Made by a program: the position numbers and the translations under genes
Notes under the pieces: generated by a model
What the model was told of the DNA's origin: nothing
The model's database searches: none
The model's input: the letters and a program-made list of their open reading frames with translations, nothing else
Source: a virus
DNA length: 27,367 bases
IMG/VR virus record: IMGVR_UViG_3300031772_001395
Coordinates: 1 to 27,367 of that record
Strand: one strand, 5' to 3'
Part shown: one piece after another, positions 1 through 27,367 of the stretch
How positions within the stretch are numbered: position 1 is the stretch's first letter
Layout of the letters: every line of letters begins with the position of its first letter

Positions 1-2
1 AG

Positions 3-227
3 AAGAGAAAGTGTAAGATAACTCACCCTGAGGCGGCACAGCCAGAAGTTATTATACAGTACAGTGGTGAGTCACTTAGACTAGATGTACTGAACAGCAT
101 TGTGGAGTTGTTCCCTGAGTTTGTCTATGTTCACTTTGTACCTGAAACCATCTTCCCTGAGAATAAACCTATAGGGTTAGGAGACACACTTGAACCAGCA
201 AGAGGCAATCCAACTACTACTGTCTGA
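3..227 (+). CDS. C-terminal end of an unknown phage gene (partial)
   Basis: One frame stays open from the left edge to a TGA at 225-227, giving 74 visible residues, while the other two plus-strand frames stop within the first 21 bases. The peptide is acidic to neutral, with a hydrophobic stretch around VELFPEFVYVHFVPE and a proline-rich end. Its last 38 bases overlap the start of the large terminase gene. The place just before terL is often held by a small terminase subunit, but no helix-turn-helix or other small-terminase signature is visible in this fragment, so the function is unknown. The start lies outside the window. Confidence 0.6.
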   Translation, partial: KRKCKITHPEAAQPEVIIQYSGESLRLDVLNSIVELFPEFVYVHFVPETIFPENKPIGLGDTLEPARGNPTTTV

Positions 228-1815
228 CAGAACTCTCCTAATCGAGACTCTGGTCAAGATTGAGAACAAGGAGCGCCAGCTAGTGCCCTTTGTGCTCAAT
301 CCTATTCAGAGAGATATGCTTAGTAGTAGCAGCAGTAGAGACATATATGTCAAGCCTGCTCAGGTAGGGGCAAGCAGTCTATTCATCTGTGACTACCTAC
401 TTGATTGTATTACTGTTCCTGGTACAGTGTCAATCATTATCAGTTATGATGAGTTCATCACTGGTAGACTACTCCGCAAGGCTCAGGGGTTCTACAACAT
501 ACTCAACAACACTGTGCCTGGACTGCCAACTCTTCAACACAAAAGCACTTATGAGAAGGTATTTGAGTTTAGGAGGAATGGCAGGATAGAGGGGTATAGT
601 AGCTTCTACATTGCCTCTGCCAGGAGTTTTGACTATGGTCGTGGTGAGGCTATACATGACTTACTGGCTGATGAGTATGCCTTCTGGCCTTCTGGTGAAG
701 CAGAGAAGTTTGTAGCTAGTGCACTACAGCGTGTTCCACTACTGCCCAACACTAAGGTAAGAGTGTGCTCGACTCCTAATGGTGAGGACAATGAGTTCCA
801 TGAAATGTATATGGCAGCAAAGGAGGGTAAGGAGGTAGGTAAGTCAGTCTATACTGCCCACTTCTACTCCTGGTGGAAGCATCCTGAGTACTCTATGGCA
901 GCAGACTCTCCATTTGTACTGCCAGGTGATGAGAACATTACTACTCTATCTACTGAGGAGCAGAATCTGCTCAAAGTCTGGCAGCAGTATGAGTTCACTG
1001 AGGATGAGATATATGACAAGATTAGGTGGAGGAGATACAAGCAGGCAGAGATGTCCAGTGTTAGGAGGAGTGGAGAGTCAAGGCTACTTTTTGGACAAGA
1101 GTATCCAGAGGATGATGTCAGTTGTTTCTTGTCTGCTGGAGATATGGTCTATGATGCCCAACTGATTAGTGACATGGCAAGAAAGTGCTATCCTGCGCCA
1201 GTCCACAACTTATTTGCTGACATCTGGTATACACCTGAACCTAGTGTATCTTACTTAGTAGCCATAGACCCTGGTGAGGGCAAGCAGAGTGAGTCAGTAG
1301 CAACTGTGTGGAAGTTCATATTTGAGGCTGATGAACTCAAGGAAGCAATCCACTGTGCTACTATGTCAGGCTTCTATGCTCAGGATGAGATGGCTGAGAA
1401 GTCAATAGTGCTGGCTAAGTGGTATAATGGTGCCATGATTGCTAATGAGGATGCGTTAGGATTCACTAGTCATGTGGCAAAGTATGGCAATCTATACTAC
1501 AGACATGACCCTGTGACTGGCAAAGTTGGTAAACTTATTGGCTGGCAGACTAACACATCCACTAAGCCTTTTATGATAACTGAGTTGGGCAGATACATGA
1601 GTAAGATAACTGCTCACGACATCAGGCTGGTTAGTCAACTCAGGAACATCAGATGGATGGTAGACAGTAGAGGCAGAGATAGAGCAGTAAGTATTGGCTC
1701 TGACGACTACCATGACAGTGCAGGGATAGCAATAGTTTGCAGAACCTCTATGCCAGTAGTTAGAGGTGCAGTTGGTACTTACGGTTGGGGAGATGACTGG
1801 GGAAGGATAAAGTAA
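190..1815 (+). CDS. terL: Terminase large subunit (packaging ATPase and nuclease)
   Basis: This is the motor that pumps DNA into proheads and cuts the concatemer. Visible motifs: an adenine-binding Q motif near residues 35-44 (LNPIQRDML), a Walker A variant at 55-62 (KPAQVGAS), a Walker B acidic pair at 161-162 (LLADEYAFW), and the coupling motif CSTPNGE near 194-200. The C-terminal RNase H-like nuclease carries Asp360 (AIDPGEG), Glu420/Asp421 (NEDALG) and Asp505-509 (DDYHDSAG). The length of 541 aa is usual for full-length TerL. The start is TTG at 190, chosen because AGGAG lies 6 nt upstream. The gene overlaps the end of the preceding one and is followed by a small ORF and the portal gene, the standard packaging order. 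The ATPase and nuclease signatures are seen directly; the function follows from the family. Confidence 0.95.
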   Translation: MNQQEAIQLLLSDRTLLIETLVKIENKERQLVPFVLNPIQRDMLSSSSSRDIYVKPAQVGASSLFICDYLLDCITVPGTVSIIISYDEFITGRLLRKAQGFYNILNNTVPGLPTLQHKSTYEKVFEFRRNGRIEGYSSFYIASARSFDYGRGEAIHDLLADEYAFWPSGEAEKFVASALQRVPLLPNTKVRVCSTPNGEDNEFHEMYMAAKEGKEVGKSVYTAHFYSWWKHPEYSMAADSPFVLPGDENITTLSTEEQNLLKVWQQYEFTEDEIYDKIRWRRYKQAEMSSVRRSGESRLLFGQEYPEDDVSCFLSAGDMVYDAQLISDMARKCYPAPVHNLFADIWYTPEPSVSYLVAIDPGEGKQSESVATVWKFIFEADELKEAIHCATMSGFYAQDEMAEKSIVLAKWYNGAMIANEDALGFTSHVAKYGNLYYRHDPVTGKVGKLIGWQTNTSTKPFMITELGRYMSKITAHDIRLVSQLRNIRWMVDSRGRDRAVSIGSDDYHDSAGIAIVCRTSMPVVRGAVGTYGWGDDWGRIK

Positions 1816-1828
1816 AATACCAGAACAA

Positions 1829-1945
1829 ATGACAAAGTTTACACCCTCGCATACAAAGATAGTTAGATTTATAGGCAAACATGGAGAGGTAGTTAAGGAA
1901 GTTCCAATGAACCGCAAAGAGCGTAGAAGGCGAGGGATAAAGTAG
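1829..1945 (+). CDS. Small very basic ORF between terminase and portal
   Basis: A 38-codon ORF with an ATG start fills the 140-nt gap between the terminase and portal genes and ends 10 nt before the portal start. The product is strongly basic, ending in NRKERRRRGIK, which would suit nucleic-acid binding. No good ribosome site lies at the usual distance; the nearest purine tract is about 22 nt upstream and lies in the end of terL, so expression would need coupling to terL. Its stop lies in a 10-base sequence (GGATAAAGTA) that also contains the terL stop. It may be a real small gene or a remnant of duplication. The function is unknown. Confidence 0.4.
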   Translation: MTKFTPSHTKIVRFIGKHGEVVKEVPMNRKERRRRGIK

Positions 1946-1955
1946 GAGGACTTAG

Positions 1956-3575
1956 ATGGCTAATATGACTGCAAACGATGTTATTGTGAAGTCTGGGAAA
2001 TTAAAGAAAATATGGGAGAAGCGTGATGTGCAACTCAAGCTGTACTACAAACAGATACAGATGGAAGATGAGTTTGCCCAAGAAAACTTAGAATCTTTTG
2101 TTGGCAACGACCCTAGGTCAGCCTACAACTTAGTAGTCCACATGCTCAATCAGAAGATACCTCACAGAATCAAAGCTGAGGAACTTGACAAGACTATCAT
2201 GGTAGCAAGTACTCAGGTTGAGGGATTCTTCACTACTGCCTGGAATGACATCTTTGAGGGGTACAGGAGGAGGGGCAAGCAGAGTTTCATGCGTGACCTG
2301 ATAGGACTGCTGATTGCAACTGGCTGGTACAGTGTATTCTCAACTATCACACCTGATGGTAGTAGATGTATGGCTGAGATATGGAATCCTTCTACTGTCT
2401 TCCCTTACTTTGACGATGATTTAGTAGAGTGTGCTCACATAGACACTCTATCTGAGAGTTCAGCCAAGAGGATGCTGATTAGAAACAGTTGGAAGGTAGA
2501 TGTGAGAGGTACTCAAAAGTTGTTTGACTACTGGTGGCTGGATACTCCCCGCACAGATGGTGGCTGGAATGTCTACAATGCAGTAGTAATAGGAACTACT
2601 CTAGCCAAGCCTCCTACACTCGAGTCAAGGATGAGACGCATACCTATCTTTATCTCTCCTACTGGTGGTCTACCTGACACTGGCTACATGAGTGACGACT
2701 GGCCTGCTGAGATTGGTCAACCCTCTATTGCTACTAACTCCAAAATCTACCGCTACTGGAACAAGTGGTGGACTTTCCAGATGCAAATTCTCAGAGACAC
2801 TGCTCAACCAAAGATATTTGAGCAGAGCAGGAGTACTAGTCCTATAATTAAAAAAGAAGATATGACTAAGCGAGGAGTCATTTGGAGAGGCAGTCCAGAA
2901 GACTCTGTAGAGTATGTAACTCCTCCAGTTATTCCACTGGAGCTTAGGGGTGCACTACTCGACATGGAAGCTATGAAGGACAGAGGCGGCCCTTCTGCTG
3001 CTATGTTTGGTGCTGTAGCACAGCAGATGACTAGCTTTATGATGTCTCAAGTATCCAGCCTCACTGCAATGATGGCTAGTGCATACCACGAAGGAATAAT
3101 TAACTGTCTAACTGACATAGACAACTTCTGGGTGCAACAGATGAAAGACAACAACCACTCTCCATACCAGTTTAGTTGGCCTAAGGAGATACCTGACAAC
3201 TACAAGATTACTGCTGAGTATGAAGTCAGAGTACCTGGCGACATGGCTAATAGAGCAACTGTGGCCAGGATGCTCAACCCCAACTTCCGACTGCCAATAC
3301 TCAGAGTCTACGATGAGGTATTCCCTGAGGTTAAGAATCCAATCAATGATATTGCACAAGTCAGGGCTGAGGATGCTGAGGCTAATCCTGTCTATGCACA
3401 GATAGCACTCATCCAAGCACTCAGGAGTCAGGCTGATATACTAGAGCAGTACAAGGATGCTGTTGGTGCTGCACTGTTCACTAAGGCAGCAGACATGGTG
3501 GAGAGTACACTTACTCCTCCACAGCAGGAACAGGCACAGCAACCTACTCAAACTCAGCAGGGTGGTGTGATTTAA
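1956..3575 (+). CDS. Portal protein (head-tail connector ring)
   Basis: A 539-aa protein directly after terL, with an ATG start preceded by AGGAGGA at 7-nt spacing. It has the look of a podovirus-type portal: a charged helical N-terminus, an aromatic-rich middle (WWLDTPR, RYWNKWWTFQMQ) that would correspond to clip, wing and stem regions, a helical segment around MFGAVAQQMTSFMMSQVSSLTAMM, and a Gln/Thr-rich tail. The portal forms the dodecameric ring through which DNA enters and leaves the capsid and to which TerL docks. The assignment rests on size, position between terminase and capsid genes, and general sequence character rather than a short diagnostic motif. The stop overlaps the ATG of the next small gene (TAATG), so translation is probably coupled. 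Confidence 0.82.
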   Translation: MANMTANDVIVKSGKLKKIWEKRDVQLKLYYKQIQMEDEFAQENLESFVGNDPRSAYNLVVHMLNQKIPHRIKAEELDKTIMVASTQVEGFFTTAWNDIFEGYRRRGKQSFMRDLIGLLIATGWYSVFSTITPDGSRCMAEIWNPSTVFPYFDDDLVECAHIDTLSESSAKRMLIRNSWKVDVRGTQKLFDYWWLDTPRTDGGWNVYNAVVIGTTLAKPPTLESRMRRIPIFISPTGGLPDTGYMSDDWPAEIGQPSIATNSKIYRYWNKWWTFQMQILRDTAQPKIFEQSRSTSPIIKKEDMTKRGVIWRGSPEDSVEYVTPPVIPLELRGALLDMEAMKDRGGPSAAMFGAVAQQMTSFMMSQVSSLTAMMASAYHEGIINCLTDIDNFWVQQMKDNNHSPYQFSWPKEIPDNYKITAEYEVRVPGDMANRATVARMLNPNFRLPILRVYDEVFPEVKNPINDIAQVRAEDAEANPVYAQIALIQALRSQADILEQYKDAVGAALFTKAADMVESTLTPPQQEQAQQPTQTQQGGVI

Positions 3576-3748
3576 TGTCGGCTTCAAAACGGATAGCTTC
3601 CACAATGGGGCTGGTTGTCATTGTGGCTGGTGTGGCTGGTGTTGTGGGTGCACTTGTGGGCTGGTGGTTGAATCTGGTGCAAAAACTGCCAAATTGCAGT
3701 CGTGGTACGCTACAATTAAATCTGTGGGGGTTGGATTGTGAAACTTAA
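3575..3748 (+). CDS. 57-aa single-pass membrane protein
   Basis: The ATG shares one base with the portal stop (TAATG), and the 57-codon frame ends inside the first codons of the HNH gene, overlapping it by 11 nt. The sequence shows a short basic N-terminus (MSASKR), one strongly hydrophobic helix at about residues 11-32 (GLVVIVAGVAGVVGALVG followed by WWL), and a short polar tail with two Cys. The topology is typical of small phage membrane proteins of unknown role. A holin, spanin-like or virion membrane component is possible, but nothing decides between them. The DNA is unusually GTG/CTG-rich and repetitive over the helix compared with the flanking genes. The tight overlap on both sides argues that it is real. 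Confidence 0.6.
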   Translation: MSASKRIASTMGLVVIVAGVAGVVGALVGWWLNLVQKLPNCSRGTLQLNLWGLDCET

Positions 3749-4211
3749 TTCAATTAACGGTAGGACTAGCAGGAGTATTGACCCTAAGTTGTCTAAGGAG
3801 CTATTTATTAGGGATGGTGGACTATGCACTTACTGTAACGGTCTGGCTATTGAGATAGACCATGTAGTCCCAGTCTCTTGGGGTGGTCCTACTATACCAT
3901 CTAATCTGGTTTGTTGCTGCCATAGATGTAATAGTAAGAAGAAGAATCGCTCTGATACAATAGGGCAGGAAATGATGACTGCAGGGTTGTTTCACTTAAT
4001 GAGGCAGGGTGAGGACATATCTTGGGTAGATACATTAGACCCTAACTATATGGTTAACAAGACTGACTTAGTGTTTGATAAGCGGCAGGATAAGAGTGTA
4101 AAGATTTCTTTAGGTGCAATAAGTGACTTACAGGCTGCTATAGACAGGGGAGACTGGAATACAGTGACTAGACTTAGCGAGTCATTAGATATGACAGTGG
4201 AGGAAGAATAA
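3738..4211 (+). CDS. HNH endonuclease, probably free-standing homing type
   Basis: A 157-aa protein with a complete zinc-braced HNH core: CTYC at residues 30-33, the catalytic His in IDHVVPVSWGG (His42 after Asp41), Asn56 in PSNLVCC, and a second pair CHRCN at 61-65. Basic residues follow (KKKNR). HNH enzymes of this form nick or cut DNA. In phages they serve as packaging-associated nucleases or as selfish homing genes. Here the gene sits between portal and a giant structural gene and starts with GTG inside the preceding small membrane gene, which fits a homing insertion better than the usual cos-cutting HNH beside the terminase genes, though the latter is not excluded. The C-terminal half is unrecognised and may determine target specificity. 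Confidence 0.85.
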   Translation: MKLNSINGRTSRSIDPKLSKELFIRDGGLCTYCNGLAIEIDHVVPVSWGGPTIPSNLVCCCHRCNSKKKNRSDTIGQEMMTAGLFHLMRQGEDISWVDTLDPNYMVNKTDLVFDKRQDKSVKISLGAISDLQAAIDRGDWNTVTRLSESLDMTVEEE

Positions 4212-7200: not shown

Positions 7201-10200
7201 AAGAAAACAATCCAAGACCTCATTAAGTCTGTTGCTGACGAGGCAGACGATGCTGCCATACTCAAGAAGTTCGGTAAGATAAGTAAGATATGGCGGACTG
7301 GGATAGACGCCATTGGAAGTGAGAAGGATGCTATCTGGCATGAGGTCAGGCGTATCCAGACTCAACTACAGGATAGTGTCACTGTACTAACTCCTAAACA
7401 AAGACTTGCAGCAGATAAGTTCCTTTCTGACTTAGATGCCGAGATAAACAATGCTAGTGACTACTTACTAGCTCACTACAATAGGACTGAGGCTTTGTGG
7501 AGTACAATAAGAACAGAACATCCTGAGGGGGCAGAGTTAGAAGCTCTACATTATCAGTATAGGAAAGACCAGATGGCACTCAGAGAAGCCTTCAATGACT
7601 CAGATGCAGCACTAAGCAGCCACAGTCTTGCATCTAGACTAGACTCTGCTAAGGCTATACTCGAACTGCCCAAGCAGACAACTAAGATTGTAAATGTGTC
7701 TGGCAGACCAATATCTCCTGTAGACATCGCCCAGATGTCAGGTTGTATGATGGAGGATGTATATAGGAACTTAGTAGAATCCTTTTCTATGCAGGGTAAG
7801 AAGTACTTTGTGGAAATGTTCCAGGCAATGGCAGACTCTAGACCTAGACAGTTCATAGGATTCACCAGGGAGAAGTTAGGCGAAGTCTATGACCACATAG
7901 TACAGAACATAGGTATAAGGCCAGCGGAGTCTGGAGCAGAGTTTGAGATTCGCAAAGCTGCTGAGAACTTGAAGATGGAACTGATTGACCTCAAAATGAA
8001 GAAGTCTATGGTATTTGACATGCAGCCTAGGTTGGCAGAGTACTTTACTAATGCAGCCAATAAGATGCAAGAGGGAATTAAGATTAGTAAGGGAGCTAAA
8101 GCCGCACCTCAGATTACTTTATCTACTGGTTCTCCAATAGCAGGAACCTATGATGTGGTTGCTTCTATAGGTAAGAAAGACTTGGGGGTAATAACTTACT
8201 CAGAAGGAAATAACTACTTTGCTATCCTTACTATAAAAGTCAAGGATGAATATAAGAGGTTAGGGGCGGGCAGTAAACTAATAAGAGATGCAATAGATAA
8301 GGCAGAGTCGTTCAAGAAACCTCTACTATCAGGTACTGTTGGTGATGAGGGTGAGCTATTACTTAGAGGTATGGAAAAGAAAGGGGTTATAATTCTAACT
8401 GAGCCTGCAGAAGAGTTCAAAGGTTGGAGTAAGTATGCAATATCTAGAGGCCCTAAGTTTACTGCTGCGCCTGAGTCTGTAGGTGGTATCACTAAGCAGT
8501 CTTGGGACTCGCTTCGCCAACTGGCCGCTGACGATGCCTCCAGAACTTACAACCAAATGTTTGCTGACTACAACAACACTTCCATCTTAGGTACAGTCGG
8601 GCGCATGTTCTTCCCTTACTGGAAGTACAACTCCTACCGTTGGACTTGGTTAGCTCGCACAGCAGTTCGTCATCCAGGTACAGTAGATGCCTGGTCAAGA
8701 TTCTACGAGAACACTGACCAGGGCAGGTTTGGGATTGGTGGAGACCTAGCTTTTGGTGCACTAGCAGGTACTGTACTAGGCCCTCTATTCCAACTGGCAA
8801 GGCAAGACTATGCATCTTACTACGAAGACATGGGGCCTCTATCTACATTTGTAGACAATGCTCAAAGGTGGGCGTTCTCTCCTAACCCTCTCATTATGAC
8901 AGCAGCATACTTATCTCCTATGTTGTCAGGACAAAAGCCTGAGTTAGGTTCACTCCTACCTGGCCTGTACAAGGCTGGACTCAGTGCTCTCATCTTGTCT
9001 CAGGTTCCAGGAGTCAGCGATGCAGCTAAGAAACTCCAGGATACAATCTTCCATGATAACTTCCGTGACTACTACAAAGCTATGATGGTGAATGAGAAGC
9101 AACTCAGAGTAGGTGGAACTCTTGCTGGTGGAGTAACTGGAACTGAGTTGTGGGAGAAGATAAAAACTAAGCTACCACTAACTCCTGAGGAGCAAGTATT
9201 GTGGGATAGCACTGAGCAAGATGTAGCTCTACTTAGTCTAGTTAGGTCTGAGTTTGCATACATATCTTACTCTCCTACCGAAACTAGAACTATCCAAGCT
9301 AATGTGGATAAAATCTATGAGGCTTATGGGTTCACTCCTGCCCAGATGAAGTACATGAGAGAACATGGTATTAGACCTTCTGACATCATGGGAGGTATGC
9401 CACTAGATATCAGACAACAACTAGACCAGATGTGGCAGTGGAAGTTTGTTGGTGGCGCAAGCGAGATGCTTGCACCTCCATCAATACAAGACACTAAAAT
9501 CAAAGTTAGCCAGTACTGGAGTGATGTAGGTACACTATCTGACAGAAGACTTGCTGAGGAGATTGATGCTGAGAGCAGATTCCTTCATCCAACTGGTACT
9601 ACTAAACCTCTAACTCCATCTGACTTCAAATCAGAGCATAGTAGTATCTGGGATAGGTACAATACATCTATCACTGACCTCAATACTATCAATCCTAAGT
9701 ACAAAGATGAGGAGTTTCAACTGATGGTATCTAACAGCCCAGAAGGTATAGCACTACTTATTGAGAAGACTGGTGGCTATGCGCCTTATCAGCAAGGCCC
9801 AATGGATACTCTCATCAGTTTCTGGTATGATGTGCAAGTGGAGAATAGAACTAATCCTCACACAGGTGAGACTGAGCCTGACTACCTTATGTATACTCTC
9901 AAGCGTCAGGCAGTGCTAGATGCTGTCCCACCTGAACTCCAGCCACAGTTCTTAGATTGGGTGCATAAGAACTCTACTCCTCTCGAGTTGAAGCGTGATG
10001 AGATAATGAACCAGTACATCAGAGGTTACCAGCGTATAACTGACATAGTATATGGAACTTATGATGAGGAGAGCCAGGCACTAATAGATGAGTTCTACTC
10101 TGGTGGTGTAACTAGGGAGAGGAAAGAGGAGATACAGCAGGAGATTGACCCTAAGACTGGTAGAAAACTAATCTCAGCCTACTCTTCTGCTCTCACAACT

Positions 10201-10341
10201 GCTAGGCAGAGGATGAGAGACCTTAGTCCTACACTAGACTTCTGGCTCTATGTGTTTGGCTATATCAGTCAGCCTAGAACTGATACTGCCAAGCTAATGG
10301 TAGACAACTGGGAGAAAGACAGAACTAGCATACTGAAGTAA
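4213..10341 (+). CDS. Giant (2042 aa) virion protein, probable internal/ejection protein with embedded GNAT domain
   Basis: This single ORF takes up over a fifth of the window. It starts one base after the HNH stop and is read by the same ribosome stream. It is mostly alpha-helical by composition, with long charged helical stretches at about 590-700 and 850-1150. Features seen: an aromatic segment near 700-727 (LWNTPFAMAYIANF) of the sort found in large polyvalent phage proteins; a GNAT-like acetyltransferase domain at about 1305-1405; an aromatic motif at about 1463-1490 (RMFFPYWKYNSYRWTW then ARTAVRHP); and a small-residue hydrophobic stretch at about 1511-1535 (GALAGTVLGPLFQLA) that could insert into membrane. 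Size, position between portal and scaffold, and this mix suggest a protein carried in the capsid and ejected into the host. No lysozyme or transglycosylase motif was recognised. Real gene: certain; role: inferred. Confidence 0.75.
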   Translation: MPLPTKTPIIDWSKPESWPENWWSNVPKKIGSVIPISSFPAASSQGMMSIFDNPPKGYGTFAAQQQKWQMENYRWQYAVGLNSMKTGTQAEPSMGWFPSQIHGIVSQFELLQRTMAGLVGKTPAGVAPKNIYEAPITDPTIIANNWKRSAFMSAFYGIIESMVKTDKVKTFDDYLRISQMNPQDYHITAADQNEIESAITRLTLAPAATLEEQKLTEFLTTPQVIRITPQLPHVITVQEIIKSLTTGGATAVAPDEAAAQDYLDLAKTMGIPDDYKAELAIFETQLEPYFASAREQAASVDAVMKGLAEWKMPDVSLWQQLQFAAARPMQEVADFIQKTIGSNFADPIAGLGVYIGQRLFQHTPQVDTLFEQYKSQGIDPWHALGSMYQDYTLYDNGALNTIGKMTYSAIADPLTWWPGWGLSVPGNLLVKGGTKLGPNLAGLGFKTFGEELLSVNRWMWHVTNIPFDGFRGMLDKLPLATKEVIKREGDNLSNILIAGSTDAGKVADKLTATGLVDHIEASVVAFGKTPKGPGLLVSAGRFFHVPATLEPDAIVAMGKKLGMDASKFKLGGVQVVSDSMIGRVNDLVKGAIQKTIPIEQATVDLLREFGIPKTLANLNKASKMLLDLTKETYTSRISILKQIAKEEGSTANDVLKAARGQQTTLAQDYFKSRYALTQQRQGIMQAIVNGVDALDRAIWRRTIDRLWNTPFAMAYIANFQVLIGNVFGEPQLVQMLEGIRPGFGHTKTYLTISRGLLAPTDLTREAMERTGTGEFGFLAGAVGTKGQRAIVPSKGWPAWLGTNLIKTQNSAGYMIRIDSWSKLWEKYFAERLRVANLLPGVDIPKAVTDATRNVPALPKGFGLKSATIVKDTQLAFMNNITQLQEVAKELIENYSPTNILRGQIEKLIKNESAFSIDTKTKLFAALDETDVLGSLDNINKLASDGANWSLTELKQAAWNRSEAFKDLADAITSHTIETPTQLADVLATYGNIVTTAKKTIQDLIKSVADEADDAAILKKFGKISKIWRTGIDAIGSEKDAIWHEVRRIQTQLQDSVTVLTPKQRLAADKFLSDLDAEINNASDYLLAHYNRTEALWSTIRTEHPEGAELEALHYQYRKDQMALREAFNDSDAALSSHSLASRLDSAKAILELPKQTTKIVNVSGRPISPVDIAQMSGCMMEDVYRNLVESFSMQGKKYFVEMFQAMADSRPRQFIGFTREKLGEVYDHIVQNIGIRPAESGAEFEIRKAAENLKMELIDLKMKKSMVFDMQPRLAEYFTNAANKMQEGIKISKGAKAAPQITLSTGSPIAGTYDVVASIGKKDLGVITYSEGNNYFAILTIKVKDEYKRLGAGSKLIRDAIDKAESFKKPLLSGTVGDEGELLLRGMEKKGVIILTEPAEEFKGWSKYAISRGPKFTAAPESVGGITKQSWDSLRQLAADDASRTYNQMFADYNNTSILGTVGRMFFPYWKYNSYRWTWLARTAVRHPGTVDAWSRFYENTDQGRFGIGGDLAFGALAGTVLGPLFQLARQDYASYYEDMGPLSTFVDNAQRWAFSPNPLIMTAAYLSPMLSGQKPELGSLLPGLYKAGLSALILSQVPGVSDAAKKLQDTIFHDNFRDYYKAMMVNEKQLRVGGTLAGGVTGTELWEKIKTKLPLTPEEQVLWDSTEQDVALLSLVRSEFAYISYSPTETRTIQANVDKIYEAYGFTPAQMKYMREHGIRPSDIMGGMPLDIRQQLDQMWQWKFVGGASEMLAPPSIQDTKIKVSQYWSDVGTLSDRRLAEEIDAESRFLHPTGTTKPLTPSDFKSEHSSIWDRYNTSITDLNTINPKYKDEEFQLMVSNSPEGIALLIEKTGGYAPYQQGPMDTLISFWYDVQVENRTNPHTGETEPDYLMYTLKRQAVLDAVPPELQPQFLDWVHKNSTPLELKRDEIMNQYIRGYQRITDIVYGTYDEESQALIDEFYSGGVTRERKEEIQQEIDPKTGRKLISAYSSALTTARQRMRDLSPTLDFWLYVFGYISQPRTDTAKLMVDNWEKDRTSILK
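8125..8427 (+). other. GNAT-like acetyltransferase domain inside the giant virion protein
   Basis: Residues about 1305-1405 of the 2042-aa protein depart from the surrounding helical character and show a beta-strand run (YDVVASIGKKDLGVITYSE, then NYFAILTIKV). This is followed by the GNAT motif A signature DEYKRLGAGSKLIRDAI, with the acetyl-CoA pyrophosphate-binding GxGS loop and the following helix. A strand (KKPLLSGTV) and a C-terminal helix-strand pair (ELLLRGMEKKGVIIL) complete the expected order. The usual Q/R three residues before the first Gly is a Lys here. GNAT enzymes move an acetyl group from acetyl-CoA to amines or protein lysines. The substrate is unknown. Confidence 0.7.
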
Positions 10342-10408
10342 GTGATATAATAAAATAATTGTGGCTATAATTATATCTATTGACAGCACAGCAGATTTAT
10401 GGTATACT
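10340..10408 (+). promoter_or_regulatory. Strong sigma70-type promoter with AT-rich upstream region, driving scaffold and capsid genes
   Basis: The -35 hexamer TTGACA (10380-10385) is perfect, the spacer is exactly 17 nt, and the -10 is TATACT (10403-10408). A TGG directly before it gives an extended -10 (TGnTATACT). The 40 bases upstream (10340-10379) are almost all A/T and include the palindrome TATAATTATA (10366-10375), resembling an UP element. Transcription would begin near 10414-10416, just ahead of the AAGGAGGGG ribosome site of the scaffold gene. It lies in the largest gap of the structural block and would boost scaffold and capsid expression over that of the upstream packaging genes. 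Confidence 0.85.
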
Positions 10409-10430
10409 TAGATTGTAATAAGGAGGGGAA

Positions 10431-10991
10431 ATGTTAGAGGATAAATCTCAGACTCCTACAGCAGCAACCAGTGAACCTGCTCAATCTACACCAACTACTC
10501 CAGCAGAGAAGATGGTGCCTGAGTCGGATGTGGTGAAGGCTAAGGGAGGGCTGCAAAAGCAACTGGAGGAAGTCAAGTCTCAGATGGCTGAGGCTCACTC
10601 TCTCCGATTGCAAGCAGAGGCCAAAGTGCAGACTTTGGAGGAGAACCAGAAGAAGAGTGCAGATGCGGTCAAGGAGATGGAGACACTCAAGAGTTCACTA
10701 GAGGAAGTCAAGAAGGCTTCTGACAGTGCAACTACTCTTGCTCTCCAGTACCGTAGGTCACTGATAGCCAAGGAGTACTCTGTACCTGAGGATACTATCA
10801 AAGCCTATGGTATGCAGGAGCTAGAGATGTTTGAGAAAGCTCTCAAGGTAGTCAAATCTAATACTGGTGGTGGACAGTATGCAGCAGGTGGAGTCTCAGG
10901 TGCACCAACAGTACACTCTGACACAGACCGTGCATTTCGGAATCTGGAAAAGGCTCAAAGAGGAACCCCTAATACACCTACACCAAAGTAA
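10431..10991 (+). CDS. Capsid scaffolding protein
   Basis: A 186-aa acidic, Ala/Glu/Lys-rich protein with a low-complexity Thr/Pro N-terminus (about 1-30), a long predicted coiled coil at about 35-115 (GLQKQLEEVKSQMAEA, VQTLEENQKKSADAVKEMET) and a Gly-rich hinge before a basic C-terminus (RAFRNLEKAQRG). The coiled coil followed by a basic C-terminal segment is the classic build of a phage scaffold, which nucleates procapsid assembly by binding the coat protein and is then lost. It lies directly upstream of the major capsid gene with only 14 nt between them, shares the strong promoter at 10380-10408, and has an AGGAGGGG ribosome site. No protease is seen, so removal by exit rather than cleavage is plausible. 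Confidence 0.85.
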   Translation: MLEDKSQTPTAATSEPAQSTPTTPAEKMVPESDVVKAKGGLQKQLEEVKSQMAEAHSLRLQAEAKVQTLEENQKKSADAVKEMETLKSSLEEVKKASDSATTLALQYRRSLIAKEYSVPEDTIKAYGMQELEMFEKALKVVKSNTGGGQYAAGGVSGAPTVHSDTDRAFRNLEKAQRGTPNTPTPK

Positions 10992-11005
10992 TATAAGGAG
11001 GAAAT

Positions 11006-12085: not shown

Positions 12086-12120
12086 CAACCAGTAATGATT
12101 TGTAAAAAGGAGAAAAGAAA

Positions 12121-12969: not shown

Positions 12970-12979
12970 AGAGAACTAC

Positions 12980-13016
12980 TGAGGAGGAGGGTGGAAACGC
13001 TCTCCTCCTCAAGGAG
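12980..13016 (+). promoter_or_regulatory. Perfect 10-bp hairpin capped by a GNRA tetraloop, overlapping alternative RBS hairpin
   Basis: TGAGGAGGAG (12980-12989) is exactly complementary to CTCCTCCTCA (13002-13011). The pairing continues inward through G-U, G-C, U-G and G-C pairs to a GAAA tetraloop (12994-12997), giving a 14-bp stem. There is no U-tract, so it is not a normal intrinsic terminator. The 3' arm also contains CTCC (13005-13008), which can pair with GGAG (13013-13016), the ribosome site of the next gene. The large hairpin and RBS masking therefore exclude each other. It may shield the capsid mRNA 3' end, tune the downstream gene, or both. Confidence 0.7.
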
Positions 13017-13022
13017 TATAAC

Positions 13023-13238
13023 ATGGCACTAAGCAAGATTATTGTATGGTTAGAGTGGGAGAACAAAAACCTATTCAGGCTAACTGAAAAAGGTATTGGG
13101 GCTGCACCTGATATAACTATAATAGAGTCTCACGAGAATGCCACTATTGAGCAGGTCTGGCCTGGAGTACAGGCTTCTTGTGTCTCCTACTTCCTCAAAA
13201 AGATATCTGATGTTGGCACAGAGATGAAACAACCATAG
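13023..13238 (+). CDS. Small hypothetical structural-region protein (71 aa)
   Basis: The ATG is preceded by AAGGAG at 6-nt spacing, within the base of the hairpin at 12980-13016. The 71-aa product begins ALSKIIVWLEWENKNLFRL and looks like a compact mixed alpha/beta domain with no membrane segment or Cys-metal motif. It is followed 10 nt later by the next small gene, in a run of four short ORFs between the capsid module and the tail hub. Such positions often hold head-completion or neck proteins, but nothing in the sequence assigns a role. Confidence 0.65.
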   Translation: MALSKIIVWLEWENKNLFRLTEKGIGAAPDITIIESHENATIEQVWPGVQASCVSYFLKKISDVGTEMKQP

Positions 13239-13248
13239 GAGGTGTACT

Positions 13249-14016: not shown

Positions 14017-14026
14017 GGAGCAGCCA

Positions 14027-20783: not shown

Positions 20784-23369
20784 TCATTCCCATCTCAAAG
20801 TTTTTGTAACCTCAAATGGTATCCTAACTGGTGCAATATGCTCTAGCTCCTCAACTGGAAACTCACAGTTACCGTCTAACGTGATAGAATCATGCACCGT
20901 CACTGCCAATGGTAGTTTGTACTTATCACATATAATTAGTGCTCTCTTCATAATCTCACCATCACTACCCTGCACAGGATAGTTAATAGCTTTAGACTTC
21001 ATACCCTCCTCTCCTTCATCGTCAGGCAGTCTGATTCTCCTCCCAAACACAGTTGGCAGTGACCACCCATCTCTGAGTCCTTCTCTTTGTGCTCCTTTAA
21101 TCCACTCTGCTGCCTCCTTGAAAGTCTTAAACCATCTGTCAAGGAACTCAGAACACTTCCTCACATCTTGTATCTTAGCCTGTTGACTGATAGTTTTTGC
21201 AGTTGCTCCATAAGCTATGGCATAGTTGAGAGTCTTTGCAATCTTACGAGTGTTAGGGGTGACTGTGCCAAACAACTCTTGTGCAGTGAATGAGTGTATA
21301 TCTCCATTCATATAGCCTTCTATGTAGACTTTCTCCATTTGCCTATCACCACTAAGGTGCATGATGATGTAGAGATGTTCCTGTGAAAAGTCGCCAGTAG
21401 TGTAAGTTCCACTGTCAGGTACAATAATATTTCTGATGTTGTAGTGCTCTACTCTAGGTCTAGTAGGATTCTTACCTGGAATATTCTGCATATTCATTTT
21501 ACTACTACTAATCCTACCAACTCTTGCATCTAGATTGTAGTTAGTGTAGATTCTATCCTGACCTTTCATAGGCCAGATGTACTTAGTTAGTAGAGTATTG
21601 TTATGCTTGTAGGATAGAACTATCTGAGCCAGTGGGTCGTCTAAGAACTCCAATGTATCTTCATCTGTCTTGAGTTGCTTTCTGCTTCTAGTGAGTGGTA
21701 GAAAGTTTCCTCTCTTAGCCAGTATAAACCCAACCTGCTGCCCACTGTTAGGATTATCAACTCCCAAACTCTTAATCATCTTGCTGTAGTATTCCAAGTC
21801 AGCCTCTAGTTTATTCTCCATCTCTACTCTGTCAGGCTCACTGAACTTGACACCTCTCAGTCCCATCTTGATTAGTATAGGCACAACAGCCATTTCTACT
21901 GCAAAGTAAGTTGGATTGATGTGAGGTAAGTAGTGATGGTATAGTGCAAGAGTACACCTGCTATCATCTGCACAGTGCTGAGCCACTATATCTGCTGGTA
22001 CATCTAGCATAGACTTAGTTTTGTACTTAGCTAGTATCTCTCTAGCTGGAGTAGTGGACTTATTAACTTCTATTGCAAGTAGATATAGTGTTGCATCCTG
22101 AGCACCTAACAACCTTGCCATAACTGCTGTGTCTGCTATGTTTGAACTCTCTATTGGGACTACTAGAGGCATGTTGCGCAAGTCAAAAGGACAGTTTCCT
22201 GTGATAAACATTTGGTCGTCTCCGTATGCTACCCAACTACCTAACTCTGTACTGACACACCAGGCATTCTCGTTGCTGACTGTGTAGTTTAGGTGTTGAC
22301 CTGTTATTACTGGGGTTACTAGTGATATGCTATGCCCATCAAGGGTGGGAAAGTACCCCATCAGGAATGATAGTAACTGTATTGCTCTAACCTTTACTAG
22401 AGACTTCTTCTGCGCAATCTTTGGGGGAATGGAGCCTTGATAGCCTTCTGCATCATATACTGTATCGAAGAAGGCTTTCCTAGCTTTACTACTTAAACTA
22501 AGTATGAACTCATCTAGGTTGCTTAGGTCTTTGTTTAACTGTGCTCTTTGCCAAAGATACTTGACGTACTTGGCCTTTAGATAGAACCTATATAGTAACC
22601 TCTGATTATCATTTCTTCCTGGCTGCTCTTGTATACTTGTAAGATTATCTTTAACTAGGAAGTATATATCATCTGGATACTTTGACTGTGCTATATATGC
22701 AACTACACTATTCTTCTTAAACCATTTTATACTTCCATCTGTTATTATCCATGCAATTACCCTCGCCTCGTCTTCTGTTATCGGTGATTCTCCATCTATA
22801 TTGTAATTTGCACTAAGTGTTATACATAAGTACTTATTGTTGAGCAACTCTGCTGTAGTAAATTCTACAGGTTTGAACTTACGGCTGTATGTATTGTACT
22901 TAGTACCGTACCATCTATGGTCTAGGGAGGCTCTGAATGTATATCTGCTATTGCCAAACTTGGCTATTTCCATATTTCTAGGCTCTACTATTCCAGTTAT
23001 TCTAGTCCATTCTAGGTTGCTAGACTTCTGGTTGTACCCAAGAACGGAATCTCCTATGCCTAGCTCTCCATAACCTTTCCATCCCTTATGCGTTAGTGCT
23101 TTGTAGTTAGCAGGTACACAGTTGTGAAATACTTTCTTAATGGCAGGGTTAGTCAGCACATTAGTTAAGTAGTGCAGTGCAGGGTCTGGCTCAGGGAATG
23201 TCTGGAAGTAGAATGACTCATCAGGTGTAGTGGCAATAGAGAATCCTACAGGCATCCTCTCATCCAAACTTATTGTTTCGCAGTCAACTGCAACTACAGG
23301 TGGAGGCGATTCAACTAGTTGTTGCATGAAGTATTCCTTAGTTAGAGTGTTAGGGCCAAAGTAAAACAT
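20784..23369 (-). CDS. polA: Family A DNA polymerase with 3'-5' exonuclease, interrupted by an intein
   Basis: The 861-aa precursor contains a 309-aa intein (84-392); the spliced enzyme would be 552 aa. Exonuclease: Exo I DCE (29-31), Exo II HN|CPFD (Asp396 after splicing), Exo III around ADDSRCTL (468-469). Polymerase: motif A GDFSQEHLYI with Asp660, motif B RKIAKTLNYAIAYG (708-721), motif C VHDS (826-828). There is no 5' nuclease domain, as in many phage enzymes. Motif A has His at 665, where the steric-gate Glu normally stands, and Tyr where Arg is usual. Motif B has Tyr716 at the Phe762 position of E. coli Pol I, and motif C has Ser for Glu. It is probably the replicase. It starts within the methyltransferase stop (TAATG), with a GAGGAAG ribosome site. 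Confidence 0.95.
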   Translation of the reverse strand: MFYFGPNTLTKEYFMQQLVESPPPVVAVDCETISLDERMPVGFSIATTPDESFYFQTFPEPDPALHYLTNVLTNPAIKKVFHNCVPANYKALTHKGWKGYGELGIGDSVLGYNQKSSNLEWTRITGIVEPRNMEIAKFGNSRYTFRASLDHRWYGTKYNTYSRKFKPVEFTTAELLNNKYLCITLSANYNIDGESPITEDEARVIAWIITDGSIKWFKKNSVVAYIAQSKYPDDIYFLVKDNLTSIQEQPGRNDNQRLLYRFYLKAKYVKYLWQRAQLNKDLSNLDEFILSLSSKARKAFFDTVYDAEGYQGSIPPKIAQKKSLVKVRAIQLLSFLMGYFPTLDGHSISLVTPVITGQHLNYTVSNENAWCVSTELGSWVAYGDDQMFITGNCPFDLRNMPLVVPIESSNIADTAVMARLLGAQDATLYLLAIEVNKSTTPAREILAKYKTKSMLDVPADIVAQHCADDSRCTLALYHHYLPHINPTYFAVEMAVVPILIKMGLRGVKFSEPDRVEMENKLEADLEYYSKMIKSLGVDNPNSGQQVGFILAKRGNFLPLTRSRKQLKTDEDTLEFLDDPLAQIVLSYKHNNTLLTKYIWPMKGQDRIYTNYNLDARVGRISSSKMNMQNIPGKNPTRPRVEHYNIRNIIVPDSGTYTTGDFSQEHLYIIMHLSGDRQMEKVYIEGYMNGDIHSFTAQELFGTVTPNTRKIAKTLNYAIAYGATAKTISQQAKIQDVRKCSEFLDRWFKTFKEAAEWIKGAQREGLRDGWSLPTVFGRRIRLPDDEGEEGMKSKAINYPVQGSDGEIMKRALIICDKYKLPLAVTVHDSITLDGNCEFPVEELEHIAPVRIPFEVTKTLRWE
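22194..23120 (-). mobile_element. Intein with LAGLIDADG-type homing endonuclease in the polymerase
   Basis: The insertion begins at Cys84, directly after KKVFHN, with a typical block A (CVPANYKALTHKGWKGYG, then GIGDSVLGYN). Block B-like SRYTFRASLDHRWYG follows, with the conserved His. The endonuclease core carries two degenerate LAGLIDADG helices, VIAWIITDGS (204-213) and FFDTVYDAEGY (300-310). The C-terminal splice blocks are CVSTELGSWVAYGDD and QMFITGN, ending at Asn392, with Cys393 as the +1 nucleophile. The penultimate residue is Gly rather than the usual His. The flanks rejoin to give HNCPFDLRNM, an intact Exo II motif. Confidence 0.93.
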
Positions 23370-24160
23370 TATTTCTTCCTCAACACTATTATGTCCTCAT
23401 CGTCACAAACTTCCCAACCTGCTGCTCTATGTATTCTAGTGTACATACTACCTAGTGTGAACCACTTGAACCAGTCCTGTAACTCAAACCCAATCTTCTC
23501 ACAGTCTCTTGCTGCTCTACCTGATAACTCCTTTCGCACCCAGTTCTTTATGTGGTCTTTAATCAGGATAGTGAGAGTGCCCCCAACTGGCAGTGACTCA
23601 TAACACTTCTTATATATCCCTTCCATCATAAAGTGATACTGGAACTCATTGTACTGCCCTACATTCTGTGGGTCATCTGTATATGCAGCCATCTTGTACG
23701 CACCAGACTTCTCCATAGTCAACTTATCAGTACCCTTGGACTTCATAATCTGTGCATACGGTGGAGAGAATATAATGTGGTTGCAAGGTATAGGAAGCAC
23801 TGCCTGACAAGCAGCATTGATAGTTATTATACTACACCCAGGAGCTAACTTCTCTACTGCTGCCCTGCTCATTTCAAGCAGAGGAAAGTACTCATCCTTG
23901 TTGAGTTCTATGCAGATGATGTTTCTACCTGTTAGTGCGCCAACCATAGTAGTGCCACTTCCTGCCATTATATCCATTAGTGTATCACCTGGCTCAGATA
24001 CATACTCTATGACTGACTGTATCAAGTATAAGTTAGCCTTTGCTGGATGCTTGTTAGTCTCAACTGGGAATATCTCATTCCTGTCTTTGGAGTCATTGAG
24101 TGGGAACAGTACCCAGTTATGCTCGTCACGGCTGTAGTCTGGCGCAAATACCTTACTCAT
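23369..24160 (-). CDS. DNA methyltransferase (N4-cytosine/N6-adenine type)
   Basis: A 263-aa enzyme. Motif X/I region: HPAKANLYLIQSVIEYVSEP, then GDTLMDIMAGSGTTMVGAL (about 59-77), the AdoMet-binding loop, followed by IICIELNKDEYF. The catalytic motif IV is SPPY (132-135), a form usual in N4-cytosine and some N6-adenine enzymes. Motif I comes before motif IV, the gamma-like order. An upstream ATG at 24178 would add six residues but would place the AAGGAGG ribosome site inside the coding region; the start at 24160 has AAGGAGG six bases upstream and overlaps the preceding gene's stop by 8 nt, so it is preferred. No restriction enzyme is nearby, so it probably protects phage DNA or regulates. 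The target sequence is unknown. Confidence 0.88.
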   Translation of the reverse strand: MSKVFAPDYSRDEHNWVLFPLNDSKDRNEIFPVETNKHPAKANLYLIQSVIEYVSEPGDTLMDIMAGSGTTMVGALTGRNIICIELNKDEYFPLLEMSRAAVEKLAPGCSIITINAACQAVLPIPCNHIIFSPPYAQIMKSKGTDKLTMEKSGAYKMAAYTDDPQNVGQYNEFQYHFMMEGIYKKCYESLPVGGTLTILIKDHIKNWVRKELSGRAARDCEKIGFELQDWFKWFTLGSMYTRIHRAAGWEVCDDEDIIVLRKK

Positions 24161-24320
24161 CCTCTTCCTCCTTAACATTCCTGTTCGCTTCTGCTCTCTC
24201 CATCTCAGCTATCTGCCTCCCAGTCATCCCATCCATAGTATAGCAAGGCTCACCACACTCAGGGCAGACTCTATCTCCAGACCTCATCAGGTGACCATTG
24301 CGACATGCAAACTCACTCAT
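24153..24320 (-). CDS. 55-aa zinc-ribbon-like protein
   Basis: This ORF starts at an ATG that shares one base with the stop of the preceding gene (TGATG). It has AAGGAGAG seven bases upstream, and its TAA lies 8 nt inside the methyltransferase gene, so it fits the operon exactly. The product begins MSEFACRNGHLMRSGDRVCP and continues ECGEPCYTMDG: Cys6 with His10, then CPEC (19-22) and Cys26, a compact metal-binding knuckle. The C-terminal half is charged and ends EEEDE. It is the first of three adjacent small zinc-type genes. Nucleic-acid or protein binding is likely, but the role is unknown. Confidence 0.75.
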   Translation of the reverse strand: MSEFACRNGHLMRSGDRVCPECGEPCYTMDGMTGRQIAEMERAEANRNVKEEEDE

Positions 24321-24613: not shown

Positions 24614-24895
24614 CTACTTGCTCCTCATCTGCTGCTCTACAATCCAAGCACAGTCCATAACAAACTTACGTTCACAGACAGGGCAGTGAAATAGTACATC
24701 ACCATCAGCAGGTCTATGCCATACTAGTGGTTCTCTACACTGAGTACAGTATGGTATAAAAGACATACCTATATTCCACCATGCTAACTGTACCTTGCTG
24801 CCAATAACTATTATGTCTTGAGAGACTTCTACAGACTCTCCTAAGTCTGGACAGTTATCTGGTATGATTGTGTCTACACCTTTAATCTCTGCCAT
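24614..24895 (-). CDS. Zinc-ribbon protein (93 aa)
   Basis: ATG overlapping the ERCC4-nuclease stop (TAATG), with GGGAGGGAG upstream. The C-terminal half is a classical zinc ribbon: CTQC, a beta turn (REPLVWHRPADGDVLFH), then CPVCERKF, giving four Cys for one zinc, followed by a helix (DCAWIVEQQMRSK). The N-terminus is a beta-rich segment (GVDTIIPDNCPDLGESVEVS). Zinc ribbons of this kind bind nucleic acid or act as protein adaptors in transcription or replication. The function is not known here. Confidence 0.72.
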   Translation of the reverse strand: MAEIKGVDTIIPDNCPDLGESVEVSQDIIVIGSKVQLAWWNIGMSFIPYCTQCREPLVWHRPADGDVLFHCPVCERKFVMDCAWIVEQQMRSK

Positions 24896-25677
24896 TACAA
24901 CTCCCTCCCTATGCTAATAAGTAGTTTAGTTGCTAGAGTCTTGCCTATTCCTACTGTCTTGCACAACTCATATACATCAGCCATACCTAAGTCCAGCAGA
25001 CTATGGAAGCCTGCCTCCCTCAATGCTATTGCTTTAGTCTCACCTATGCCAATCTCATAAGCGAGACTGATTGACATGACTGCCTTAACAAAAGGGTCAT
25101 GTTGAGACAGAGTTATCTTTGGCCTGATGTACCTCTGCATAGTGGAATGGAACTCCTGCTGGCATGACTGGTAGTGGTGCACTAGCAACTGTGCTGTGCC
25201 TATGTAGTTGAGAGTCCAGAATGTAACTACACCTGCTTGACTAAGTTGAAACAGCCAGTTGTCGAGTAGTGCAGGCTTGACTCTATGAGGATGCTCGTCA
25301 TAGATGTGACCGTTGGGTGCAACCTTGTATGAGAAGAGTATATCAGTCATAGGTTTGGACTTAGTAGTCACACCATCTCTAAAGTCAAACGCCTTGGGTG
25401 CTTTGTGAGTTAGACACACTGGACTAATCAATCCTTCTACTATTTGATAGTTCTCATCTGCCTGATTATAGTAGTCTCGCAGTTGTGACTCTGCCTCATC
25501 AATGTCAGACAAGAGTTCACCTGATTGTTTGCGACTATACTGCCTAGTTCTATTATCAACTCCACCATAATAGTAGTCGCTCATTCTTTGCTGATTAAGG
25601 TTGTTAGTGGCTACTTCTACTGACTGCTTGATAAGTTCAACTATTTCTGATGGCTCATTACTATCAACAATTAGCAC
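24895..25677 (-). CDS. ERCC4 (XPF)-type nuclease with C-terminal helix-hairpin-helix
   Basis: A 260-aa protein starting with GTG overlapping the previous stop (TAGTG), with AGAGGAG upstream. The N-terminal half follows the XPF/Mus81 nuclease pattern: LIVDSNEP (Asp5, matching the DSREP strand), MSDYYYGG (Asp34), SRKQSGELLSDI in the place of ERKxxxD, EAESQL, and IVEGL. The C-terminus (about 205-260) has tandem helix-hairpin-helix features: AYEIGIGETKAIALREAGFH and KTVGIGKTLATKLLISIG. Such enzymes cut branched or flap DNA. Two core positions differ: Ser48 for Glu and Glu54 for Asp. The neighbouring ATPase and Fe-S nuclease suggest a recombination role. Family assignment is good. Activity is uncertain. 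Confidence 0.82.
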   Translation of the reverse strand: MLIVDSNEPSEIVELIKQSVEVATNNLNQQRMSDYYYGGVDNRTRQYSRKQSGELLSDIDEAESQLRDYYNQADENYQIVEGLISPVCLTHKAPKAFDFRDGVTTKSKPMTDILFSYKVAPNGHIYDEHPHRVKPALLDNWLFQLSQAGVVTFWTLNYIGTAQLLVHHYQSCQQEFHSTMQRYIRPKITLSQHDPFVKAVMSISLAYEIGIGETKAIALREAGFHSLLDLGMADVYELCKTVGIGKTLATKLLISIGREL

Positions 25678-26489
25678 TAGTCTCCTCTCAACGACTTAGT
25701 CAGTGTAACTATCCCATTGTAGTCTGGCGTTGGAAGGTACAGCCCCAAACCCTTTGTGCCTACTCCTACTAGTGCGCACTTATTAACTATCCTAACTGCA
25801 ATCGTATCTACTCCATTCTGCTTTACCCACTCAGTATGCAGTTCCAAGTCAATCAGCTTGCGAGTTTCCTTGAACCCATCAGGTTCAAGTACTCCAGTAG
25901 CATAAGACTCCTTCTCACCTTTGCTGTTGACAAAGTCTTTGTAAGAATCTCTTGGGTAGTGAATTAGAATTAGATTCTTCTTATAGGAGCGGGCAGTATA
26001 TATAAGTGTCGCCATGCGGTCATTAGGCTCGCCGTATTCTATTTGCACAAGGCGTTCACGAATTTTATCCTCTGACACTCCCTGTGCTATTTGCTTCTCC
26101 TGCAACTCCTGCAGGTATGCTCTAGTAACTATATTCCAGAGTTTAGTGGAGGAGTCAAATATGATAGTGGATATGTTAGGTTTCTGTACTGTCTCTACAT
26201 AGTCAATCACAAACTGCTGCCACAGTTCCTTCACTCCTATAATCTTCTTGGGCAGCCTAGATGTAGCATTAGGACTACCCTTCAATTTCTCCAGCTGGAT
26301 AGGAGTAGCAAACTGCTTGTTAGTTATTAGTGCTAGTTGAGCAGGAGTGAACCTCCATGCTGCTCTGGCATAGCCGCCTATGTCAAACTCATAGTGGACA
26401 ATTCTGCCCAAATCTACCCACGAAAGAGCAACGGATGTCTTCCAACTCCCTTCCTGACCCCAGATGCTGACTACTATTGGCTCAGTCAT
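25677..26489 (-). CDS. RecA-like/Sak4-type phage recombination ATPase
   Basis: A 270-aa P-loop ATPase with Walker A GQEGSWKTSVAL (11-22) and Walker B STIIFDSS (Asp112), and with RecA-like middle elements (LIYTARSYKKNLILIHYPRD) and a C-terminal domain (NKCALVGVGTKGLGLYLPTP). Phage ATPases of this form (Sak4 and relatives) promote single-strand annealing or strand exchange together with a binding protein. It overlaps the Fe-S nuclease gene upstream by 4 nt (ATGA) and the ERCC4 nuclease downstream, so all three are coupled. The length is usual for the family. Sak4 versus another RecA-like ATPase cannot be settled without alignment. Confidence 0.8.
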   Translation of the reverse strand: MTEPIVVSIWGQEGSWKTSVALSWVDLGRIVHYEFDIGGYARAAWRFTPAQLALITNKQFATPIQLEKLKGSPNATSRLPKKIIGVKELWQQFVIDYVETVQKPNISTIIFDSSTKLWNIVTRAYLQELQEKQIAQGVSEDKIRERLVQIEYGEPNDRMATLIYTARSYKKNLILIHYPRDSYKDFVNSKGEKESYATGVLEPDGFKETRKLIDLELHTEWVKQNGVDTIAVRIVNKCALVGVGTKGLGLYLPTPDYNGIVTLTKSLRGD

Positions 26490-27157
26490 GCTTCCTTCTT
26501 ACTAATCAGGCTAATTGCAGCACACTGCATTTTATACCGACACTTGGAACACTCCCACTCTTTACACCACATATAAGGTTCTGGAGGAGTGTTGTCGTTT
26601 AGGTGAGACTGGAATACATCTCGTCTAGTTAGGAGGTACTGCCAGTTCTCATCTAGCTCCCGCTGCTCGAACTCTAATCTACATGCTGAAATCTGTGGGA
26701 AGGGAGGAGCATAGTTCCCCATCAGATACAGAATGACTAATTCATAGCTGTTAGTCTTTCTGATATGACATCCACCTTTGATGTACTCAATCCATGTCTC
26801 AGGCAACTCACCCTTCTTGCTACTCATTCGAGTAGTCTTGACCTCAATCAGTTGCAACCCAACATTACCTGGTATGCACAGTAGCATGTCAGGTCTGTAG
26901 ATTATACCTTCATCCTCATAGATAGGAGTCTGTGCATCTGGTGGAGTCAAAACATCCTGCAGTCCATACCCAAGTGCAAACAGCATCAGTTCTTCATCAG
27001 TTGGCTCTACTGCTGAGTGAGCATCAAAGAATGAGCGAGTCAGACAGTAGACCAGAGTAGACAGGTGGATACCTTCTCTAGGCTGCTTGAGCTTGTATTT
27101 GTCAGAGAGATGGTTCAATATCAATCTTGATAGTTCAGGGTTGTCAGTTTTTATCAT
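26486..27157 (-). CDS. Cas4/RecB-like PD-(D/E)XK nuclease with Fe-S cysteines
   Basis: The nuclease core is YRPDMLL (Asp90) followed by LQLIEVKTT (Glu105, Lys107). One Cys stands near the N-terminus (LVYCLTRSFF, Cys38) and three or four close to the C-terminus (WCKEWECSKCRYKMQC: Cys198, 203, 206, 212), the spacing of the 4Fe-4S cluster of Cas4 and AddB/RecB-like nucleases. These act as exonucleases on DNA ends. The reading frame extends upstream to an ATG at 27247, but that would run through the folded element at 27175-27255 and give an atypical start. The ATG at 27157 (223 aa) with AAAGAGG upstream is preferred. No CRISPR array or Cas1/Cas2 is present, so this is a stand-alone phage nuclease. 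Confidence 0.82.
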   Translation of the reverse strand: MIKTDNPELSRLILNHLSDKYKLKQPREGIHLSTLVYCLTRSFFDAHSAVEPTDEELMLFALGYGLQDVLTPPDAQTPIYEDEGIIYRPDMLLCIPGNVGLQLIEVKTTRMSSKKGELPETWIEYIKGGCHIRKTNSYELVILYLMGNYAPPFPQISACRLEFEQRELDENWQYLLTRRDVFQSHLNDNTPPEPYMWCKEWECSKCRYKMQCAAISLISKKEA

Positions 27158-27174
27158 GTTGCCTCTTTCTAGTA

Positions 27175-27255
27175 GGAGCAGGACTCGGCTATTTACCCGA
27201 AGGTTTCGGTGGTCATCCGATAGGTGCGACCACCACTCCGCACACATCCTGCTCC
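27175..27255 (-). ncRNA. 81-nt folded element, possible riboswitch, ribozyme or other structured RNA
   Basis: GGAGCAGGA (27175-27183) and TCCTGCTCC (27247-27255) form a perfect 9-bp closing stem. Inside lie a perfect 7-bp stem (27208-27214 with 27228-27234) and, in the minus-strand transcript, a cUUCGg-capped short hairpin (27195-27204). Two 4-nt stretches of the 13-nt loop can pair outside it: GCAC with GUGC (27224-27227 with 27240-27243) and UCGG with CCGA (27217-27220 with 27185-27188), suggesting pseudoknots. It has six CpGs in 81 nt in an otherwise CpG-poor genome. It sits between the stop of the upstream gene (27264) and the RBS of the nuclease gene. It is not a tRNA and has no U-tract. 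Confidence 0.6.
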
Positions 27256-27263
27256 ATACTATC

Positions 27264-27367
27264 CTACTTTGCTACCTTGTGATATACCTTGTTTGCATCT
27301 ACTGTGAACGCACCAGTTGTGACCAGTCCTTCTACAAAGGAGTTGTCTAGTATGCTGCGCTGTGCAT
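27264..27367 (-). CDS. C-terminal end of an unknown gene upstream of the structured element (partial)
   Basis: Reading the minus strand from the right edge, one frame gives 33 residues, ending DNSFVEGLVTTGAFTVDAN then KVYHKVAK and a TAG at 27264-27266, with ordinary phage-like codon use. The frame read from the terminal base stops after six codons. A third frame is also open but has an atypical Arg/Cys-rich product. The function is unknown. The stop lies 8 nt before the folded element and about 100 nt before the next start, so this gene and the nuclease probably share a transcript. Replication genes missing from the window (helicase, primase, single-strand binding protein) may lie beyond this edge. 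Confidence 0.5.
   Translation of the reverse strand, partial: AQRSILDNSFVEGLVTTGAFTVDANKVYHKVAK

Follow-up and report, generated by a model that had tools for sequence, protein, structure and literature searches.

Near-absence of GATC in an uncultivated phage and in most of its relatives: a probable case of restriction-site avoidance

The tetranucleotide GATC has been almost completely removed from the genomes of a family of uncultivated phages, and it is likely that this elimination serves as an anti-restriction strategy. The stretch of DNA at the centre of this analysis, referred to as the window, is the whole virus record IMGVR_UViG_3300031772_001395 (27,367 bases), probably a fragment of a phage genome. 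GATC occurs in it a single time, at positions 15362-15365, and the exact count agrees with the initial annotation also for the abundance of the neighbouring words GATA (155), GATG (187) and GATT (98).

This number is far outside chance under all the models that were run. Base frequencies alone predict 104 copies in the window, while a maximal-order Markov model built on trinucleotide counts, a comparison of the kind suggested by the initial annotation, expects 90 (z = -12.1) and ranks GATC as the most depleted of the 256 tetranucleotides. Synonymous codon shuffling gives an expectation of 75 +/- 7, the lowest of 300 shuffles containing 59 copies. A stricter shuffle, in which dinucleotide counts are held fixed in addition to proteins and codon usage (the strict null hereafter), still expects 63 +/- 5.5, with 51 copies in the lowest of 25 samples. 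Shuffle nulls were preferred because a quasi-independence estimate, left out for 6-mers as its expectations were unstable and far too high, is inflated also for 4-mer palindromes. With elimination defined as an observed-to-expected ratio below 0.1 at an expectation above 15, GATC is eliminated from the window (1 versus 63-90).

The word has been removed by synonymous codon choice, with the proteins being largely kept. Specifically, in the 26 predicted genes aspartate preceding a codon that starts with C is encoded 58 times by GAC and only once by GAT, and that GAT is the surviving GATC, an in-frame GAT-CTA (Asp-Leu) on the plus strand within an 869-aa tail-region ORF (14027-16636, plus strand). 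In the same genes, isoleucine following a G-ending codon is never written ATC and is ATA or ATT in 133 cases, ATC being used 140 times elsewhere; similarly, serine following GA is never encoded by TCN. The amino-acid pairs able to encode GATC are found in approximately the expected numbers, with the exception of Asp-Gln (11 versus 22). As the pairs are mostly undepleted and the codons are skewed, it is the word itself that is avoided, by synonymous substitution rather than by amino-acid change or mutation bias. An assembly or library artefact was also considered as the cause of the missing GATC and rejected, because of this synonymous route, of the recurrence of the loss in independent metagenomes and of the retention of GATC in some related contigs.

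Most relatives of the window phage have lost GATC as well. The terminase large subunit (190-1815, plus strand) served to find and place them, and further contigs were recruited by searching with the proteins of one relative, G001; scans of viral contigs with PolA, the methyltransferase and a terminase alignment added nothing close. The closest relatives, which derive from other metagenomes, contain 0 GATC against 22 expected (L001), 1 against 47 (G002) and 0 against 50 (L006). Near-elimination, with 0 to 1 copies, is observed also in shorter relatives including L027, L028, L033, L034 and L036. Three relatives of about 42 kb, with 48-61% identity in the terminase large subunit and with the polymerase, the methyltransferase and neighbouring genes in common, have 1 of 136 (G005), 8 of 156 (G006) and 3 of 148 (G007) expected copies. 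The exceptions are G001, which shares about 76% DNA identity with the window over the aligned parts and has 25 GATC against 113 expected, and, among the shorter relatives, the sister contigs L032 (41 of 73) and L035 (10 of 25). Under the strict null these three retain about 0.3 to 0.66 of the expected GATC, a retention that counts against restriction avoidance, as does the persistence of one copy in the window. In portal and terminase trees of 12 rows, deep lineages lying apart from each other carry the loss, and the retaining branches are G001 and the L032/L035 pair; the family loss may thus be ancestral with two relaxations, or may have occurred repeatedly. The initial annotation had asked whether related phages share the loss and had supposed a strong, long-standing selection against GATC: the loss is indeed common to most relatives, and its presence in several deep lineages, together with the synonymous route, bears this supposition out. 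Two further observations concern individual relatives. L012 (IMGVR_UViG_3300020160_002761; 32% GC), whose terminase is very distantly related, has 0 GATC against 31 expected in 10.5 kb. In L006, two ORFs within 10107-14463 match the window ORF at 14027-16636, both including the N-terminal part, which suggests, from sequence comparison, a tail region that is duplicated or diversifying.

No other word of the window is depleted nearly as strongly as GATC, but the losses extend beyond it. CTAG, GTAC, TGCA and GCGC are near expectation and, as originally noted, CTAG, GTAC and GGCC persist (151, 133 and 37 copies). The specificity claimed for the loss, nonetheless, holds only in the sense that GATC is the most extreme word, since CCGG (0 versus 9) and CGCG (0 versus 6) are also absent from the window, where the observed-to-expected ratio of CpG is 0.25, and AGCT is reduced to 0.42 of its strict-null expectation (77 versus 183). 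Summed over the window, G002 and L006, CCGG amounts to 1 copy versus about 18 under the strict null. Within this clade AGCT stands at 0.35-0.42 of the controlled expectation, to be compared with 0.73 in G001. The dinucleotide signature of the window is itself odd, with CpG at 0.25, AG/CT at 1.43 and TA at 1.03, and its codon preferences include ATA, AGA/AGG, GAG and AAG, with ACT used for 449 of 641 threonines.

The other avoided palindromes differ from relative to relative, as seen from strict-null counts on greedily called ORF sets, in which expectations below 10 carry little weight. In G007, the loss of GATC (2 of 105) is accompanied by that of CCGG (0 of 27), GGCC (1 of 66), CGCG (0 of 17) and TCGA (1 of 46). 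The closely related G006 has likewise lost GATC (7 of 108), CCGG (1 of 18) and CGCG (1 of 12), but it retains TCGA (25 of 44) and a third of GGCC (18 of 61); this pair, with its differing avoided sites, is naturally suited to estimating how fast sites disappear. G005 has 1 of 90 expected GATC and has lost most of its TCGA (13 of 58), while L034 lacks ACGT (0 of 7) and TCGA (0 of 12), and L032 keeps GATC (37 of 56) and has no CCGG (0 of 14). A site avoided in common, combined with second sites that differ between lineages, is what would be predicted if the phages faced a varying repertoire of Type II restriction enzymes.

The gene set of the window is of the tailed-phage type. On the plus strand, the terminase is followed by a portal protein (1956-3575), so called because its gene lies behind that of the terminase and is conserved in relatives, with no family model match, by an HNH endonuclease (3738-4211) and by the major capsid protein (11006-12085, phrog_212). 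The minus strand encodes a family A DNA polymerase into which an intein-like segment is inserted (20784-23369), a 269-aa N6/N4 DNA methyltransferase (23369-24178) and three proteins conserved in relatives, namely a helix-hairpin-helix protein (24895-25677), an AAA/Sak4-like ATPase (25677-26489) and a phrog_1706 protein labelled 'CRISPR/Cas system associated' (26486-27247), the first and the last of these being early-type proteins. The polymerase is 861 aa long, versus 541 and 552 aa in G005 and G007, and the extra segment of about 290 aa, which lies within the exonuclease domain, begins with a Cys after FHN and ends with ITGN before CPFDLRN, in the manner of an intein. No integrase appeared among the family matches of the window and of the scanned relative ORFs, in contigs that may be incomplete; no lysin was among the family matches listed for the relatives, and a tRNA search of the window and relatives returned none. 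The database terminases nearest to that of the window share about 26% identity with it.

Two of these genes bear directly on the interpretation. In the predicted methyltransferase, motif I (DIMAGSGTT) precedes motif IV (FSPPY), solved structures related to it match mainly the motif I region, and homologues at about 50% identity are present in all three 42-kb relatives. Its presence could mean that GATC is protected by other means, a point that counts against restriction avoidance; its target, however, is probably a word other than GATC, because the avoidance would be hard to explain if the enzyme protected that site. In motif IV of the G007 homologue (L046, 16470-17267), SPPY is replaced by SPQY. 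G005 possesses an additional methylase ORF, in which the motif reads YADPPW (L041, 4691-5200), and an MT-A70 match was found among the scanned ORFs. As for the HNH nuclease, no homologue is present in G002 between the portal gene and the large ORF, and this phage is practically devoid of GATC as well; the nuclease was for this reason rejected as the cause of the loss. The initial annotation had also put forward a GATC-based sorting mechanism; no support for it was obtained, since the HNH nuclease does not occur in G002.

What makes restriction the best account is that further Type II palindromes are missing as well, and that the set of missing words changes from one relative to the next. Orthodox Type II enzymes with GATC as their palindromic target are known: it is the Sau3A site (PMC6532042) and that of many orthodox systems (PMC4687349). 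According to a survey, elimination concerns mainly the sites of orthodox Type II enzymes and occurs in dsDNA phages that are not temperate; where the host encodes GATC Type IIM enzymes, GATC was below expectation in 46 of 46 phages (PMC6286503). In the mechanism proposed here, the hosts would commonly carry GATC-cutting Type II systems of the MboI/DpnII/Sau3AI type, possibly alternating with the DpnI type; phage genomes bearing GATC would be cut on entry, and synonymous variants removing sites would be favoured until almost none remained. CCGG, CGCG, AGCT, GGCC and TCGA would be lost where local hosts carry matching specificities. Scans of bacterial and archaeal genome contigs returned no relative of the terminase or of the methyltransferase, and the cutting enzyme is therefore a step that we infer: restriction, seated in the host, would be the selecting agent behind the depletion and the synonymous route that it takes, as well as behind its extension through the family and the differing second sites. 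Hence, the host GATC-directed restriction supposed in the initial annotation stands as the best explanation, with the system itself inferred.

A first alternative is methyl-directed mismatch repair, in which unmethylated or hemimethylated GATC would be nicked by MutH in replicating phage DNA, or repair would be otherwise disadvantageous. Selection of this kind has been proposed for enterophages and phiX174, and MutH counterselection is summarised in two publications (PMC4687349, PMC5014478); moreover, GATC is the strongest loss here, and phage T7, described below, has a similar deficit. Nevertheless, Dam and MutH would predict the avoidance of GATC alone and not the losses of CCGG, CGCG, AGCT, GGCC and TCGA observed in the same genomes. 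In addition, MutH is largely confined to gammaproteobacteria, and nothing in the analysis indicates a gammaproteobacterial host. Mismatch repair is thus an improbable cause. We give about the same small chance to a GATC-directed defence or repair function other than orthodox Type II restriction, spread throughout the host clade, perhaps in an archaeal or little-known host; an archaeal host is possible for the window phage.

Quite unlikely, in turn, is compositional amelioration, whereby the host genome would itself be poor in GATC and the phage would track its oligonucleotide usage with no direct cutting. GATC is under-represented also in genomes that encode GATC Type IIM enzymes (PMC4687349), and the dinucleotide signature of the phage is distinctive, but the null that holds dinucleotides and codon usage still expects 63 copies, G001 retains more GATC with nearly the same signature, and phages show near-exclusion more often than prokaryote genomes do (PMC6286503). 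Even less credit is due to self/non-self discrimination, in which a phage nuclease would cut host GATC and the phage would avoid its own target: the window does encode an HNH nuclease and a methyltransferase, yet none of the phage nucleases found here has a known GATC specificity, the further avoided sites vary among relatives, and the case of G002 applies here too. Finally, mutation of methylated cytosine or adenine in GATC, conceivable given the strong CpG depletion, is hardly credible, as GATT (98 versus 108 expected) and AATC (101 versus 95) are not in excess, so that cytosine deamination is not the route, and the aligned GATC sites of G001 face a variety of words in the window, the amino acids being unchanged in 6 of 13.

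If restriction avoidance is indeed the cause, the restriction enzymes that a phage meets can be read from the words that it avoids. For a family with no known host, the shared GATC loss and the second losses would predict host enzyme specificities and help phage-host matching.

Comparable losses are found in several known phages. Staphylococcus phage K (NC_005880), examined over its first 50 kb with the same Markov method, has 0 GATC versus 112 expected and 0 GGCC versus 13.5, and its lack of GATC has been attributed to Sau3A avoidance (PMC6532042); unlike the window phage, to which it is unrelated, it is much larger and its host and GATC restriction system are known. In phiX174, GATC is likewise absent (PMC5014478), but this genome is single-stranded DNA of 5.4 kb and the cause discussed is mismatch-repair avoidance. 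The database phage with the terminase closest to that of the window (26% identity), Podoviridae sp. ctuNt529 from Manatee Spring (MW202692), lacks both GATC (0 versus 121; 0 of 72 under the strict null) and CCGG (0 versus 57.5; 0 of 30), though its CpG is not strongly depleted and relatedness is detectable in the terminase only; MW202801 retains GATC (257 of 262). Escherichia phage T7 (NC_001604) has nearly lost GATC (6 versus 141, same Markov method), while its other tetranucleotide palindromes are at 0.6 of expectation or above. The T7 host possesses Dam and MutH, and mismatch repair is therefore a live rival for T7. A further parallel is provided by the cases of a published survey, dsDNA phages in which a palindromic Type II site is eliminated (ratio below 0.1), a description shared by the window phage, in which no integrase was seen; those phages have known hosts and enzymes, whereas here the loss is followed through an uncultivated family, with changing second sites (PMC6286503). 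Site elimination is already known as an anti-restriction strategy from that survey and from phage K, and what is added here is a family-wide view of it without cultivated hosts.
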